A stretch of DNA of 61,760 nt, taken from the NCBI GenBank assembly GCA_030668485.1, contig DAOUTW010000025.1, positions 1-61,760 on the forward strand, in the 5' to 3' direction. This document shows positions 9,804-61,741 of the stretch, piece by piece. Below the pieces are notes generated by a model. The model was given only the letters and a program-made list of their open reading frames with translations. It did no database searches and was not told the origin of the DNA. A program made the translations under genes and the position numbers. Each line of letters opens with the position of its first letter. The first letter of the stretch is position 1. Source of the DNA: Candidatus Zixiibacteriota bacterium. GTDB lineage: Bacteria; Zixibacteria; MSB-5A5; GN15; JAAZOE01.

Positions 9804-9879
9804 GGGGCCGTAGTTCAGTTGGGAGAACGCATGACTGGCAGTCATGAGGTCAGGGGTTCGAACCCCCTCGGCTCCACCA
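9804..9879 (+). tRNA. tRNA-Ala (anticodon GGC)
   Basis: 76 nt including an encoded CCA. Acceptor GGGGCCG (9804-9810) pairs with CGGCTCC (9869-9875) with one G-U. The anticodon stem is CATGA/TCATG with loop CTGGCAG, giving GGC. The T-arm contains GGTTCGAACC. The last ten bases are repeated twice more at an 83-bp period downstream. Confidence 0.95.
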
Positions 9880-10069
9880 ATAACGAAGTTATTTTGAGGC
9901 TGTCGCCAATACGACCGTAAAGTCCACTTGAAGTTGAGTACGTCGATGCGTTGGCTCCACCAATAACGAAGTTATTTTGAGGCTGTCGCCAATACGACCG
10001 TAAAGTCCACTTGAAGTTGAGTACGTCGATGCGTTGACTCCACCAATAACGAAGTTATTTTGAAGCTGT
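9870..10069 (+). repeat. 83-bp tandem repeat that includes the tRNA-Ala 3' end
   Basis: Copy 1 (9870-9952) and copy 2 (9953-10035) are identical over 83 bp; a partial copy 3 runs from 10036 to about 10069 with two changes. Each copy begins with the tRNA tail GGCTCCACCA. A terminator-like hairpin (AATAAC-GAA-GTTATT) with a short T run follows, then the box GGCTGTCGC at 9898-9906, 9981-9989 and about 10064-10072 (variant AGCTGTCGC). The hairpin probably terminates the tRNA transcript. No tRNA body is repeated, only its tail. Confidence 0.9.
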
Positions 10070-10390
10070 CGCGAGCTTGAGTTGACTATCTACCCCGGTA
10101 ACCAGAATTGGGCCTCCTTATTATGGAAACTGAGTAGTACTGAGTTAGTTGAAACCCCTTCGGTTCAGACACCGTAGATAATATAAAAGACATATTTTAG
10201 AAGAACCCTGGTCTTATCTACCCTCCCTGGACTGGGGTTTTTCGTTTGCAAAAATATGTGCAGCGCAGATGTCAGCATCTGCGCCGGATAAAACTCCATG
10301 GCAGATGGGTTTATGTTCACATATTTACTGATGCTAAGGCCGGGGCAGACGGGGGCGTCTGCCGCCCACAAGTAAGATTAATTCCCGAAT
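10070..10390. repeat. non-coding gap with two strong hairpins
   Basis: No supportable gene. 10263-10284 is a 9-bp-stem palindrome (GCGCAGATG/CATCTGCGC). 10342-10371 is the GGCAGACG/CGTCTGCC hairpin followed by GCCCACAA that also occurs at 895-923. Both resemble REP-type extragenic palindromes. The open frame 10165-10371 is a reading of these repeats. Confidence 0.55.
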
Positions 10391-47706: not shown

Positions 47707-47791
47707 GGAGGGGTTCCCGAGTGGCCAAAGGGAACAGACTGTAAATCTGTCGGCGAAGCCTTCGGAGGTTCGAATCCTCCCCCCTCCACCA
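47707..47791 (+). tRNA. tRNA-Tyr (anticodon GTA)
   Basis: 85 nt with encoded CCA and a long class II variable arm. Acceptor GGAGGGG (47707-47713) pairs with CCCCTCC (47781-47787). Anticodon loop CTGTAAA. The encoded CCA is part of a following hairpin ACCATT/AATGGT with a TTTTT run, which acts as terminator. The last 20 bases recur at 53596-53615 (remnant). Confidence 0.95.
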
Positions 47792-47904
47792 TTACAAATG
47801 GTTTTTGGCTGTCGCGCAGACGGCCATTTTTTTGTGGCATAAGCCGCTTTGAGACTGTCGCGGTGGCAGGAGCCACTTTTAGGCTGTCGCGTAGACGGCC
47901 GTTT
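47788..47904 (+). repeat. three hairpin/T-tract/GGCTGTCGC elements after tRNA-Tyr
   Basis: Unit 1: ACCATT/AATGGT hairpin, TTTTT, GGCTGTCGCG (47807-47816). Unit 2: GTGGC/GCCGC hairpin (47834-47847), TTT, GACTGTCGCG (47853-47862). Unit 3: GTGGC/GCCAC hairpin (47863-47876), TTTT, GGCTGTCGCG (47882-47891). After units 1 and 3 comes AGACGGCC and a run of seven T. No protein gene. The open frames here translate the repeat and share the string RPSTRQPKSG-like on the reverse strand. Confidence 0.85.
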
Positions 47905-47927
47905 TTTTGTGCGCAAATCTTCGCAAA

Positions 47928-48001
47928 TTGTCATTCCCGCACATGTGGGAATCCAGAATTATCAATAACTTCCTGGATGCCCGTTTTCATGGGCATGACA
48001 A
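47928..48001. repeat. 74-bp palindromic MITE-like repeat
   Basis: Terminal inverted repeat TTGTCAT (47928-47934) / ATGACAA (47995-48001), with an inner CCCGCACATGTGGG hairpin and a GGATGCCCG...GGGC hairpin. The TGTCATTCCCG...GGAATCCAG sequence style is common as an extragenic repeat in many bacteria. Single copy here. Confidence 0.7.
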
Positions 48002-48722
48002 GACCACCTTACTCAATTTTGGAACGCGGTTTTTCAGCAAGTCCCTACCGACTGAGCCACCCGTGCTATGTGATAGCATCCCAACAAATTGCAAAACGGC
48101 CCGGATGTTTTCATGAAGAATTAACAAATATTGAGATATTATATTATTTGGATAATATAAAAATGGGTGTTGATATTTTGGGATCAACCTGTTATATTTC
48201 GAATACATCAAGGCATTAATATCATTGGTTGAACAGGCATTTTCTCTCTGTTGAATATTAAATAAATAACTGTCCCGTACTAATCGAATAAAGTCGACAG
48301 AGATGGAAGTTCCCATTCAAGGTACATCCGAAGGATGAAGGGAGGTGGTTTATACAACCGAAATGATTCTGACTTAACGTGGTGATGATCATGGGACTTT
48401 GAAGGCATCAGACGTCAATTTTCAAATCCGAGTTGAGTATCAACGAGACGTTCCGATTCGAATCCGCCTGGAAGGTTGGGCACATTTTAATTAAGGTCGA
48501 TACCGTCCGGTATCGCAGGCCTATAAGGAATCAGCCTGCTGGATTGCATATTCGGGCCTTTGGCATCATCATGGATAATTATCAACGCCGCGTTGATTGT
48601 ATGGATATGGGCAAAATCCGGATTCCGGAAAGTAGTAGGTGAGGTAGGTTCACAGGATTTTGTTATCAGCACGACGCGGAATTGATTAACCCTAGCTATT
48701 TTGTTCAAGGGAGGAAACTAAA
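48002..48722. other. intergenic region upstream of the C25 protease gene
   Basis: About 720 bp with no gene that I can support. An AAGGGAGGTGG ribosome-site-like sequence near 48337 leads only to a stop after about ten codons. No known riboswitch fold was recognised. The last bases carry a good ribosome site (AAGGGAGG) for the gene at 48723. Confidence 0.4.
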
Positions 48723-51700
48723 ATGCACAAGACAAGTATCTTTGTATGCGTTCTGCTGTTTTTGGGCACGTTGGCCGTTATACCGGCGTATGCTGAGCCG
48801 ACCTGGGTTTCAGTCGGCGGGCCGTCAATGCCTGAAAAGCCATCGGCAGATATAATTAATTCAGATGAGACCTCAACCACTATTACGTTTACGACCACCG
48901 GTTTCTGGTCCGAGATTGTCGACGAAGGCGCGGTCACTTTTCAGCGCCTGAGCTTCCCCGAGTATCATACTACCATGGAAGTCGGCAAGCCTGAGATACC
49001 CGCTATTGTCGGACTGGTGCGGATACCCGGCTTAACCGATGTCAGCGTGAGTGTAACAGGATATACGCAAGAAACGCTGACCGGGTACAATGTGTATCCA
49101 TACCAAACGGCTTTGCTCGAGACCGAGAGTTCGGGCCCATTCGCCTACGACCAGGGCTGTTATGAATTGGATCAGGTTTATCCCACGGTAACTACCGATA
49201 TTACCGACCCCGCAATATGGCGCGATATACGGATGGTCAAACTGATCGTGTATCCGATTCGACATAACCCCGTTACCGGAGATCTGATTGTCTATACGGA
49301 TATCACGATCCAACTGGATTATTCGGGTACAAACTCCATTAACCAACTGGAGACCACCGATAATCCAATATCCCTGCGATATGACGAGATGTACAACCAG
49401 GCCGTCTTGAATTATGACGGACCTTCGTTATCCCCGGAAAACAAGGGTTCCTCCTCATCGGCCCTTACCACCGGATATGATTACCTGATTATTTCCAGGG
49501 ACGACTATATCTCAAACCTGACTCCGCTCGTCACCTGGAAAACAACTCAGGGGCTGGCTGTTCAGGTGGTGCCGCTTTCAACCGTTGGCAGTACTGTTAC
49601 AGCGATCAAGAATTACATCACCCAGGAATACAATGTCAACGGTATTCAATATGTACTCCTGGTCGGCAACGAAAGCGATATCCCGGGATACACGGGGTAC
49701 GGCAGTTTCAGTGATTATTACTATTCACTGGTCGCTGGTGGCGATGATTATCCCGACTTGGCGATCGGGCGATTATGCGTGCACTCTGCTGCTGATGTGG
49801 ATTTGATGGTCAGCAAAAGCGTTACTTTCGAATCGAATCCACCGCCGGGAGACTGGCTTAACAATGTACTCCTGATCGCGAACTTCGAGCAGGCGCCGTA
49901 CAAGTACCAAGAGTGCAAAGAGGAAATCCGCACAGCCTCATACAGCGTCCAGACGCCCAATTTCACGACAGCTTATGGCGCATCGTACGCCAACGGCGGT
50001 GATGAGGCCACCAATGCTATGGTCAAAGCGTGGATTAACAGCGGGCAACGGGTTGTTAATTACCGTGGCCACGGCGATGTTGGTTACTGGTACTATTGGA
50101 ATATCTGGGGAGAATATTTCTACAATTCGGATGTTTACGATTTGGCCAATGGTCAGTTGACTCCTGTCGTCTTCAGTATTGCCTGTTGGAATGGCAATAT
50201 CGAATCGGCGAGCACTTGTTTTGCCGAAGCCTTTACGCTGCAAGCTTATGGCGCTTCTGCAATTCTGGCTGCCTCACGACCATCGTATACGATTGCCAAT
50301 CACACCTACGATAAGAAGCTTTTCAAAGCAATCTATGACGAGGGAATAAATTCCATAGGCGATGTTTCCAATGTGGCAGCCATTGAGATGATCAACTACC
50401 ACGGATATGCGGGGCTGGCCAATGCAAGGATGTATCTATGGTTCGGTGATCCGACTTTGAATGTAATTTATACACCATCCGAAGAGCCCCAAATCATTGC
50501 TACCTCACCGACACAAAATGAGCTTGATGTGGCGGCAGGTGTCGATATTTCAGTCACCTTTGACATGCCTATGGATGAGACAACGATCAATAGTTCCTCT
50601 TTCGTAGTCAATGCCACTTCGACAGGGCTACATCAGGGAACTTTCGCCTGCGCTGATCCGGTGACGGTCATTTTCTACCCAACCGAAGATTTCGATGATG
50701 GAGAGGTCGTTACCGTGGTTTTAACGACCGACATCCAATCCGAAGGCGGAGGCAACCTGGAAAGCAGTTATATCTGGTCATTTACTATCGCAACGAGCAA
50801 CCCCAGTCCGGCGACTTTCCTTTATGACGCCGGATATGCCGCCGGTGATTTCCCGTATGCGGCCTATGCGGCTATGTTCGATGCCGATGATGATCCCGAT
50901 CTGGCAGTGCCCAACTGGATGACCAATAATGTTTCGGTTTTCCTGAACAATGGCGATGCCACGTTCCCTTCGGCAACGAATTATGCCACCGACTCCACCC
51001 CGGATTATATTTACTGCGCTGATTTTGATGCTGATGGAAACATGGATATGGTTACTGCCGATTATTGGGCGGGCGAACTGTCGGTTCTGCTGGGTAACGG
51101 AGACGGCACCTTTGCGCCATATACTAACTACTCGCCCGATACACCCACCGCGGGAGTAGTCGCTGCCGACCTGAATGGTGACGGTATCTTTGACCTGGCC
51201 GCTCCCAACCATGCTCTCAACAATGTCGCCGTTTTATTCGGGAACGGTGATGGGTCCTTTGGGACGCCGTCGAATTATGGCACCGATGATGGTTCCAATC
51301 ACATCATAGCCGCAGACTTGGATAACGACGCAGATATTGACCTGATAACAACCAACTGCGTTCCCCAAACGGTGTCAATCCTCCTTAATAATGGGGACGG
51401 AACTTTCGCAACGCATGTTGATTATTCGGTTAGTTCATGTCCCATGGGTTCCTATCCGGCAGATCTGGATAATGACGGCGATCTTGATCTTGTCACAGCC
51501 AATAAGGACAATAGCACCGTTTCAGTCCTGATCAACGACGGCCTTGGCGGTTTTGCCGCCGAAGTTTCGTATGGGGTAGGCTCCTTCCCAATGCATATTT
51601 TCGCTTCCGATCTGGATGCTGATGGCGACCTCGACATCGTCGCCCCCAATGTCTTCTCGGACAACGTCTCTATCCTCCTGAACAATGGCAATGGCACATT

Positions 51701-53375
51701 TGCAACTCATTCGACTTATGCGGCGGGGGATGGTCCGGTCCATGTCTATCCCTCCGATCTCGATGGCGACGGTGATCTCGACTTGGCTGTTGTCAATGAA
51801 TATGTTGATTCAATCGCGATCTTACTGAATCAACCGCTGATCGTGCCATCGGCGCCAATCCTGTTGTCGCCGTTGAATGGCATAGCTTTCCTCTCGTTCG
51901 GAAGTCGGCGGATTACACTCGACTGGGATGATGTCAATTATGCCATCAATTATGAGGTTTTGCTGGATAACAACATTGATTTCAGTTCGCCCATATCAAA
52001 TCCCAATAATCTGACGGCATCAACATGGACGACGCCTTTTCTGGGGCCGGGGAGATATTATTGGAAGGTGCGCGCCTCCAATGAGGTCGGTTGGGGTGGA
52101 TGGTCCGCAACCTGGACCTTCAGGATTATTCTGAGCGAAATATCCTGTCCCATATTGTTCAGCCATACCGATGAAGGTTTCAAAAAAGAAGACCCGCTCC
52201 TCACTGCCTGCGCGAATTCAGGATATGTGGATGTCGTGACCGATTACTACCATCTTACCTCGCCCATCGTACCACGGGACGGCAAAATCGTATTCCAATT
52301 GCGCGAATTGGAGGATGAAATAACGTATTTGCATGGTATTGAATTAATCACCGTAGATCACAAAGATGAGACTCGGGTTTCCTGCGATGCCAGCGGGCAA
52401 ATCAGTCTCTATCAAACCTCGGCCGGTCCGCTGACGGCAATTGATAATCATGGCAATGATCAATTGGCGGTGGTATCTCAGGAAGATGGAGTTCTGTTCT
52501 CAGCAACTGAGCCTGGTCATCTAATGGTAACTTTCTCCAATAATCAGGATGACGGATCCAATATTCTGCTGTCGTCTCCCAAGCGGCCGCCCTGCTATGA
52601 AATTGAGCAGGAACCGGATCCTTATGTCAAAGCCAATCCTGAAAGCGATGAGTCGGTGGATCTGATAGTCGAGATTCTTGACGCTGAAGGTAATTGGGTT
52701 GAAGTGTCCGGCTCAATTCCGTCTCGTGAAAATCCATCTCAGGAGATCGCATTGGCGGATATTGCGGGCGAGATTACCGATGATGTCATCACCCTGCGCT
52801 TGTCTTGGCAGAGGGGCTACTCCGCCGATGCAATCATAAGGACGGTCCCGTCTGAGGAGACTCCAGCAATTAGAACATGGCAGGTAGGGACTTATGATAT
52901 AAGCTCAGGCAATCAAGCCCAATCAATAGGGGATGATTTTGCCAACGGCAACCCGCTAATCCTTACCAAAGGCGATGTGTTCGAATTCAGTTTCACGCCC
53001 GATGGACCAGCCAATCCCAACCTGACTCGCGATTATATTGTCCGTGCAGTGGGTCGGTACCAGCCGGATTACAATGTTTTTGCGCATCTGCTTCCCAGCG
53101 AAACCAAACTTCACGCTAATTATCCCAATCCATTCAACCCGGTGACGACCATCAGCTATGATCTCCCCACAGCTTCGCATATTCGTCTCGATATTTACAA
53201 TATCACCGGGCAGTTGGTGACGACACTAATAGATGGTATGCAGGAGGTCGGTCGCCATCAATGTATCTGGAATAGTCAGGACGCTGACGGGCGAAATGTC
53301 GCCAGCGGCGTGTATTTCTATCAGTTGAAGGCGGGTGATTTTGTGAGTTCGAGGAAGATGGTCCTTCTCAAGTAA
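48723..53375 (+). CDS. gingipain-like C25 cysteine protease with FG-GAP repeats and T9SS sorting domain
   Basis: 1550 residues. Signal peptide about 1-24; propeptide-like region about 55-235; peptidase C25 domain about 265-590 with catalytic His450 in YRGHGDVG and Cys488 in SIACWNG; a Big_5/Ig-like domain about 600-695 ('SPTQNELDVAAGVDISVTFDMPM'); seven or so FG-GAP/VCBS repeats about 705-1035 (DxDxDGDxDL-type loops, e.g. DLDNDGDLDL); a fibronectin-like domain about 1040-1140; a beta-rich region; and a type A T9SS tail from about 1460 (NPFNPVTTISYDLP ... KMVLLK). Predicted to be exported by a type IX-like system and to degrade extracellular protein. GGGAGG precedes the ATG. Flanked by tRNA-Tyr and a tRNA-Tyr remnant. 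Confidence 0.9.
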   Translation: MHKTSIFVCVLLFLGTLAVIPAYAEPTWVSVGGPSMPEKPSADIINSDETSTTITFTTTGFWSEIVDEGAVTFQRLSFPEYHTTMEVGKPEIPAIVGLVRIPGLTDVSVSVTGYTQETLTGYNVYPYQTALLETESSGPFAYDQGCYELDQVYPTVTTDITDPAIWRDIRMVKLIVYPIRHNPVTGDLIVYTDITIQLDYSGTNSINQLETTDNPISLRYDEMYNQAVLNYDGPSLSPENKGSSSSALTTGYDYLIISRDDYISNLTPLVTWKTTQGLAVQVVPLSTVGSTVTAIKNYITQEYNVNGIQYVLLVGNESDIPGYTGYGSFSDYYYSLVAGGDDYPDLAIGRLCVHSAADVDLMVSKSVTFESNPPPGDWLNNVLLIANFEQAPYKYQECKEEIRTASYSVQTPNFTTAYGASYANGGDEATNAMVKAWINSGQRVVNYRGHGDVGYWYYWNIWGEYFYNSDVYDLANGQLTPVVFSIACWNGNIESASTCFAEAFTLQAYGASAILAASRPSYTIANHTYDKKLFKAIYDEGINSIGDVSNVAAIEMINYHGYAGLANARMYLWFGDPTLNVIYTPSEEPQIIATSPTQNELDVAAGVDISVTFDMPMDETTINSSSFVVNATSTGLHQGTFACADPVTVIFYPTEDFDDGEVVTVVLTTDIQSEGGGNLESSYIWSFTIATSNPSPATFLYDAGYAAGDFPYAAYAAMFDADDDPDLAVPNWMTNNVSVFLNNGDATFPSATNYATDSTPDYIYCADFDADGNMDMVTADYWAGELSVLLGNGDGTFAPYTNYSPDTPTAGVVAADLNGDGIFDLAAPNHALNNVAVLFGNGDGSFGTPSNYGTDDGSNHIIAADLDNDADIDLITTNCVPQTVSILLNNGDGTFATHVDYSVSSCPMGSYPADLDNDGDLDLVTANKDNSTVSVLINDGLGGFAAEVSYGVGSFPMHIFASDLDADGDLDIVAPNVFSDNVSILLNNGNGTFATHSTYAAGDGPVHVYPSDLDGDGDLDLAVVNEYVDSIAILLNQPLIVPSAPILLSPLNGIAFLSFGSRRITLDWDDVNYAINYEVLLDNNIDFSSPISNPNNLTASTWTTPFLGPGRYYWKVRASNEVGWGGWSATWTFRIILSEISCPILFSHTDEGFKKEDPLLTACANSGYVDVVTDYYHLTSPIVPRDGKIVFQLRELEDEITYLHGIELITVDHKDETRVSCDASGQISLYQTSAGPLTAIDNHGNDQLAVVSQEDGVLFSATEPGHLMVTFSNNQDDGSNILLSSPKRPPCYEIEQEPDPYVKANPESDESVDLIVEILDAEGNWVEVSGSIPSRENPSQEIALADIAGEITDDVITLRLSWQRGYSADAIIRTVPSEETPAIRTWQVGTYDISSGNQAQSIGDDFANGNPLILTKGDVFEFSFTPDGPANPNLTRDYIVRAVGRYQPDYNVFAHLLPSETKLHANYPNPFNPVTTISYDLPTASHIRLDIYNITGQLVTTLIDGMQEVGRHQCIWNSQDADGRNVASGVYFYQLKAGDFVSSRKMVLLK

Positions 53376-53419
53376 ATGCTTGAGAGGATAAGAATTAGAA
53401 TCTCTTTTCAGAAAAAGAA

Positions 53420-53447
53420 GGGCCGGTTTCTGACCGGTCCTTTTATT
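53420..53447 (+). terminator. Rho-independent terminator of the C25 protease gene
   Basis: GGGCCGGT (53420-53427) pairs with ACCGGTCC (53433-53440, one G-U), loop TTCTG, then TTTTATTT. It is 45 bp after the stop. Confidence 0.85.
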
Positions 53448-53590
53448 TGTGCCTATTCTGTGCCAACCCTTGACCAAACTAGCTGCAAACAAACAAAACC
53501 AAACAAAACCAAATAAAAATACCTAAATGACTCCGGATTAACGTCTTGTAAGGTAATTCGCAGTAGGTCAATACGTTACGAAGACAGGCG

Positions 53591-53615
53591 TCGGAGAATC
53601 CTCCCCCCTCCACCA
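53591..53615 (+). pseudogene. tRNA-Tyr 3' remnant
   Basis: From 53596 to 53640, 44 of 45 bases equal 47772-47816: the tRNA-Tyr T-arm/acceptor 3' strand, CCA, hairpin and GGCTGTCGCG box. The five T-loop bases before it (GTTCG) are missing, and the rest of the tRNA is absent, so it cannot be a functional tRNA. Confidence 0.85.
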
Positions 53616-53790
53616 TTTCAAATGGTTTTTGGCTGTCGCGGTGGCGGGGGCCACTTTTAGGCTGTCGCATAGATGGCCATTTTTTGTGGCAAAGACCAAT
53701 GGCAGGGGCCATTTTTGCGCTGTCGGGAAGACGGCCTTTTTTTGTGGCGGAAGCCAGTGGCAAAAGCCTTTTCCGAACTGTTGCGATGAT
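53612..53790 (+). repeat. array of hairpin/T-tract/GGCTGTCGC elements
   Basis: Unit 1: ACCATT/AATGGT, TTTTT, GGCTGTCGCG (53631-53640). Unit 2: GTGGC/GCCAC (53641-53654), TTTT, GGCTGTCGCA (53660-53669). Unit 3: ATGGC/GCCAT (53699-53712), TTTT, CGCTGTCGG (53718-53726). A decayed unit (GGC-AAAA-GCC, TTTT, ACTGTTGCG) follows near 53760-53785. The whole 53376-53968 gap has no protein gene; near 53490 there is also a short AAACAAAACC simple repeat. Confidence 0.8.
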
Positions 53791-61033: not shown

Positions 61034-61741
61034 ATGAAAAACACTCGTTTTTCCATAATTATCTGTATCGCGGGCATAATACTTTTTGGAGTAACCGGGG
61101 CTTACGCTCAAGAGACGGGTGCCTGTTGTACGCCGGATTTCACTTGTATTGATGATATTAATGTTGAAGATTGTGAGTCCTTGGGCGGTATTTATCAGGG
61201 GGATGGATCAAATTGCGCAACAGTTACCTGTACGGCTCCTACCGGTGCTTGTTGTACGCCGGAACTCACTTGTATTGATGATATTAATGCTGTAGATTGT
61301 GAGTCCTCGGGCGGTATTTATCAGGGGGATGGCTCCAATTGCGCAACAGTTACCTGCACGGCTCCTACCGGTGCTTGTTGTACGCCGGAACTCACTTGTA
61401 TTGATGATGTAACTAATGCCTATTGCCAATCCCAGGGTGGGAGTTATCAGGGAGATGGCTCCAATTGCGCAACGGTAACATGCGATGTATGCGATTGCAG
61501 ACCGGGTGATGCCAATGACGACGGAGTTGCCAATGTCGGGGATGTTGTATATATCATCGCCTATGTTTTTAAAGGCGGCCCGGCACCTCAGCCCTATGAA
61601 TTGTGCAGCGGTGATCCAAATGCAGATTGCGGCGGCGGTGTCGGCGACGCCGTTTATTTGATAGGCTATGTTTTCAAGGGTGGCCCGCCTCCCTGCAGTT
61701 GCGAAGATTGGGTGACCGCCTGTGGTATGCCGATTCATTGA
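61034..61741 (+). CDS. secreted cysteine-repeat protein with dockerin-like tail
   Basis: 235 residues. Signal peptide about 1-26 (ends AYAQ). Three near-identical 42-residue repeats follow (about 28-152), each with six cysteines (TGACCTP..TCIDD..DCES..SNCATVTC). Then a dockerin-like pair of calcium loops: GDANDDGVANVGDVVYIIAY and GDPNADCGGGVGDAVYLIGY, each followed by VFKGGP (about 157-222). Dockerins bind cohesins; in Zixibacteria-like genomes such KGGPAP tails occur on many secreted proteins and may be a surface-anchoring tag. Function unknown. Confidence 0.85.
   Translation: MKNTRFSIIICIAGIILFGVTGAYAQETGACCTPDFTCIDDINVEDCESLGGIYQGDGSNCATVTCTAPTGACCTPELTCIDDINAVDCESSGGIYQGDGSNCATVTCTAPTGACCTPELTCIDDVTNAYCQSQGGSYQGDGSNCATVTCDVCDCRPGDANDDGVANVGDVVYIIAYVFKGGPAPQPYELCSGDPNADCGGGVGDAVYLIGYVFKGGPPPCSCEDWVTACGMPIH
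61115..61489 (+). repeat. three 126-bp tandem repeats inside the dockerin-like gene
   Basis: Unit starts at 61115, 61241 and 61367, a period of 126 bp. Units 1 and 2 are nearly identical at DNA level, unit 3 more diverged, which suggests recent expansion by recombination. Copy number may vary between strains. Confidence 0.85.

Follow-up and report, generated by a model that had tools for sequence, protein, structure and literature searches.

A compact tandem array at a tRNA-Ala 3' end as a candidate footprint of a lost integrative element

Behind an intact tRNA-Ala gene of a Candidatus Zixiibacteriota genome lies a tandem array whose units each open with the end of the tRNA gene. On our reading, an element once sat at the tRNA-Ala 3' end and decayed to its att footprint, which a single round of slippage later amplified; we put the probability of this reading at roughly 55%. 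The array lies in a stretch of 61,760 nucleotides, hereafter the window, which also holds a larger parallel case at a tRNA-Tyr gene.

Results

A tandem array opens with the last bases of tRNA-Ala

The array and its surroundings comprise the following features, all on the + strand:

9804-9879: intact tRNA-Ala gene (anticodon GGC; ARAGORN and Rfam RF00005, 67.5 bits), its 3' end being the proposed integration site
9870-9952: unit 1, 83 bp, made up of the last 10 nt of the tRNA, the hairpin AATAAC-GAA-GTTATT, TTGAGGCTGTCGC and a 46-bp spacer
9953-10035: unit 2, identical to unit 1, without the tRNA body
10036-10072: partial unit 3, 37 bp, 35/37 identical, without the spacer; a candidate for the original host tail (attR position)
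9907-9952 and again 9990-10035: the 46-bp spacer, which resembles neither the tRNA body nor known element ends in any recognisable way
10200-10246: strong terminator-like hairpin (-20.9 kcal/mol, z -3.5)

Tandem Repeats Finder (TRF) delimits the array at 9870-10072, with a period of 83, 2.4 copies and 98% matches. The tail that opens each unit consists of the last ten bases of tRNA-Ala, GGCTCCACCA, and the 37-bp repeat that includes it recurs beyond the intact gene, with starts at 9870, 9953 and 10036. TRF and direct comparison of the units thus bear out what an earlier note on this DNA had described: an 83-bp tandem repeat that begins with the tRNA tail, the absence of the tRNA body from it (units 2 and 3 have none) and the identity of the first two units (83/83 bases). 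The note had placed the end of the array at 10069; the match to the unit runs to 10072 and stops there, and only 12 of the next 46 bases agree with the unit. The third unit departs from the others by G>A changes at unit positions 2 and 29.

Tandem arrays with a period of at least 30 bp and at least 85% matches number only four in 650 kb, and the tRNA-Ala array has the highest percentage among them, so we do not regard it as background. A 126-bp tandem repeat (2.8 copies, 88% matches) also occurs in the window at 61118-61473.

An assembly error is very improbable. The draft is in 139 contigs and the array contains an 84-base identity run at a shift of 83, as such an error might produce, but ordinary reads are longer than this run, the third copy is not identical to the other two, and assemblers collapse short tandem repeats more often than they expand them.

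The identity pattern points to two steps

The earlier note took the array for the product of a recent event. That description suits the second step, in which units 1 and 2 are identical, but not the third copy, whose divergence (2/37) points to an older first duplication. Because the third copy stops short of the spacer and unrelated sequence comes after it, a pair of repeats 83 bp apart must have existed before the last duplication, or else the last unit was partially lost later.

This arrangement bears on the leading rival account, which needs no mobile element: replication slippage or a tandem duplication would simply have copied DNA behind the tRNA gene, and the start in the tail would be a coincidence of breakpoints. 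Such an origin is a real possibility, though the less likely one. It would account for two identical units in direct tandem and for the lack of any recognisable element, and the genome does contain other tandem arrays. Slippage alone, however, leaves unexplained why the third copy has no spacer and gives way to foreign sequence, and several other genes of this genome also show repeated tRNA tails. With only 4 such arrays in 650 kb, a start in a tRNA tail is also unlikely to be due to chance.

Integration at the tRNA end and slipped duplication, which the earlier note had offered as alternatives, give the best account when taken together. We infer the integration at tRNA-Ala itself, because no element end is recognised in the 46-bp spacer. 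The tRNA-Ala(GGC) 3' end would serve as an attachment site for integrative elements. An element would have integrated there and rebuilt the tRNA; the host tail that it displaced, together with the hairpin and box behind that tail, would have stayed on as attR. Loss of almost the entire element would then have brought two 37-bp repeats of tail, hairpin and GGCTGTCGC to a distance of 83 bp. Finally, as the identity pattern suggests, the 83-bp unit would have been copied once, by slippage between these repeats or by their unequal exchange. The expected outcome is a pair of units without differences and, behind them, an older copy that has diverged, all next to an intact tRNA: a scar that needs no function of its own. 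That an element was once present, that the spacer is its remainder and that the two steps came in this order, as the divergence indicates, are likewise what we infer.

By analogy with other loci of this genome, an att footprint would be a natural source of such a 37-bp pair. In favour of integration, the repeat begins within the 3' end of the tRNA, where att sites usually lie. Against it, the repeated part of tRNA-Ala is only 10 nt long, compared with about 17-20 nt in clear cases, and no integrase or cargo is left at the array.

The spacer and unit lack relatives, and the neighbourhood varies

Between the tRNA-Ala repeats there is no recognisable element end or cargo, only the 46 bp of spacer. 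Compared with the tRNA body, of which it might have been a decayed copy, the spacer gave no significant similarity; nor did it when compared with known element ends (best p 0.05, uncorrected). The 83-bp unit does not occur in the 79 other genomes of the order that were searched. The earlier note had also suggested looking for the unit in mobile elements; collections of phage, plasmid and viral contigs did not contain it.

Gene order around tRNA-Ala is kept in relatives (sigma factor, MFS transporter, tRNA-Ala, ..., exonuclease dnaQ-like gene), whereas the sequence after the tRNA differs in those inspected. From tRNA-Ala to the dnaQ-like gene the distance is 2.2 kb here, as against about 7-12 kb, with other contents, in relatives. 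One member of the same family (G001) has a second, decayed tRNA-Ala 1.4 kb behind the first. The variable interval and this decayed copy fit a site prone to integration, albeit one without a clear integrase remnant. Searches beside tRNA-Ala in relatives brought up no integrase homologue; a possible integrase relic in G001 is weak (Pfam E 0.06, no PHROG) and we do not rely on it.

The array probably separates tRNA-Ala from its original terminator

The hairpin within the unit, which the earlier note had taken for a terminator, is A+T-rich and folds no better than shuffled sequences (z about 0); folding thus gives no support to that role. The strong hairpin at 10200-10246 is probably the original tRNA-Ala terminator, and the array therefore sits between the tRNA gene and this probable terminator. 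In another relative (G006), tRNA-Ala also has a similar hairpin downstream.

The box in the unit belongs to a genome-wide repeat

GGCTGTCGC is present in the unit as the earlier note had reported, but it is not specific to this locus: it forms part of a dispersed intergenic repeat with many copies in tandem modules. A T-run followed by GCTGTCGC occurs at 88 sites in 638 kb, against two for the reversed pattern, and 33 of the 88 lie directly behind a perfect short hairpin, where about 3% would be expected at random positions. The repeat, a hairpin of variable stem followed by a T-run and GGCTGTCGC, ends in a GATGAYC-like sequence. Example sites in the window are:

859, 17440, 47815-47890 and 53639-53668: hairpin, T-run and GGCTGTCGC repeat

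This family could itself recombine or copy its modules, one of which would have taken the neighbouring tRNA tail along. We consider that unlikely. The box is very frequent and often stands in tandem modules, the repeated stretch at both tRNA-Ala and tRNA-Tyr ends at or next to the box end, and body-less tails have a box behind them more often than tRNA genes do. Yet tails are also repeated without a box (fMet on contig C105, tmRNA on C93, Ser on C47, Asp on C18).

With one mismatch allowed, a box lies within 45 nt of 6/12 body-less tails and of 3/42 tRNA genes (p 0.002); with Ala and Tyr left out, the counts are 4/10 and 1/40 (p 0.004). Because some of these tails were found via the box or via element ends, the association is suggestive only. 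Displaced tails may keep older, box-type terminators, for example GGCTGTCGCGCAGACGGCC plus T7 behind tRNA-Tyr, where a 42-nt fold reaches -15.9 kcal/mol (z -3.6). The box behind many displaced tails is an association worth testing.

A tRNA-Tyr interval in the window resembles an integrase-free island

A parallel case lies further along the window, with these features on the + strand:

47707-47791: tRNA-Tyr
47772-47823: proximal tRNA-Tyr tail with hairpin and box, 52 nt
53455-53595: element right end, common to contigs C47 (83%) and C42 (78%)
53596-53647: distal tRNA-Tyr tail with hairpin and box, 92%, without the tRNA body

The two tails are 5.8 kb apart and, as at tRNA-Ala, the repeat spans the stretch from tRNA tail to box end. 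The one large gene between them encodes a C25-family peptidase of 1550 aa that also has FG-GAP repeats and a type IX sorting domain. About 140 bp preceding the distal tail recur on C47 and C42, where they are joined to tRNA-Ser-type tails; one element end beside different tRNA tails is the trace expected of site-specific integration. On C47, too, a large type IX-sorted protein is encoded directly before the common element end. No recombinase was matched on the contig of the tRNA-Tyr interval. Flanked by tail repeats and bearing an element end, with neither recombinase nor transfer genes, the interval at 47.8-53.6 kb conforms in its sequence to the structural definition of a cis-mobilizable element (CIME), and 47707-53647 as a whole looks like an integrase-free island.

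A more speculative reading would extend this to tRNA-Ala. A family of cassettes that lack a recombinase, have the right end in common and use an att of tRNA tail, hairpin and GGCTGTCGC box would be moved in trans between tRNA genes of this lineage, and the 83-bp unit would be its minimal tandem form. We hold this to be quite improbable.

tRNA and tmRNA 3' ends are integration sites elsewhere in the genome

The earlier note's statement that no integrase is present is correct for the window's contig (C48), which has no PF00589 or PF00239 match, but not for the genome, which has recombinases, several of them behind tRNA genes. There are seven tyrosine and three serine recombinase matches (PF00589, PF00239), and those on C50, C18, C120 and C129 follow tRNA-Ser, -Asp, -Gln and -Asn genes. 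In this genome, the 3' ends of tRNA and tmRNA genes are demonstrably frequent targets of integration. Tails were surveyed by genome stretches and searches, in a list that is perhaps incomplete; one tail search covered the first 23 of 39 tails.

On C18, the tRNA-Asp gene is followed immediately by an integrase and, 13 kb further along, by a second copy that has decayed. A body-less tail marks an integrated element at tRNA-Ser too. Three tRNA-Ser genes (L099, L116 and L119) are each followed directly by the start of a very similar integrase-like gene. The tmRNA gene on C93 is intact and has two further tails in series, about 3.1 and 5.2 kb downstream, and the element end before the last of these resembles the one before a tmRNA-like tail on C44. 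As a whole, the tmRNA and its tails (L184, G000:C93, 929-6530) look like tandem ssrA islands.

The closest parallel to tRNA-Ala is the tRNA-fMet gene on C105, whose tail is copied about 137 bp downstream. The sequence before this copy is related to what precedes an fMet tail on C113 (score 18, where 1000 shuffles gave at most 15). Part of the fMet spacer resembles a decayed tRNA-fMet (score 14, p 0.0035), and this repeat may mix two histories, since it could also include a decayed tRNA copy.

Discussion

Taken alone, the tRNA-Ala array is a scar; taken with the other tail-marked loci, it shows many tRNA and tmRNA genes of this lineage to be sites of integration. These include, in the window itself, an interval with a large secreted peptidase gene and no recombinase gene. 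In draft genomes, such islands can be located cheaply through their tail repeats.

Three known situations invite comparison. In CIMEs, integration and transfer genes are lost while attL and attR are kept, and accretion stacks CIMEs in tandem (PMC5704250). The loci described here are alike in showing serial att-type repeats of a gene 3' end without integration genes, and the tRNA-Tyr interval is a good match. The tRNA-Ala units, in contrast, have neither cargo nor a recognisable end and a spacing of only 83 bp; they fall short of a CIME and are a probable relic rather than an element.

The ssrA islands of Dehalococcoides form rows of 20-bp tail repeats, with 15 islands lacking integration modules (PMC3146451). 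They resemble the tmRNA locus on C93, where several tail repeats likewise stand in a row behind one tmRNA gene. Those islands are full-size and have serine integrases, whereas the tRNA-Ala array has no genes.

Misannotation is known to arise from partial tRNA genes at attR (PMC9897764), which share with the array the body-less 3' part of a tRNA beyond an intact gene. They mark full-size elements, however, and contain a longer part of the tRNA, while the tRNA-Ala part is 10 nt long and stands in tandem. The tRNA-Ala array is most likely of a known kind, that of CIME and accretion relics, produced by an ordinary mechanism and set apart by an unusually compact tandem form.
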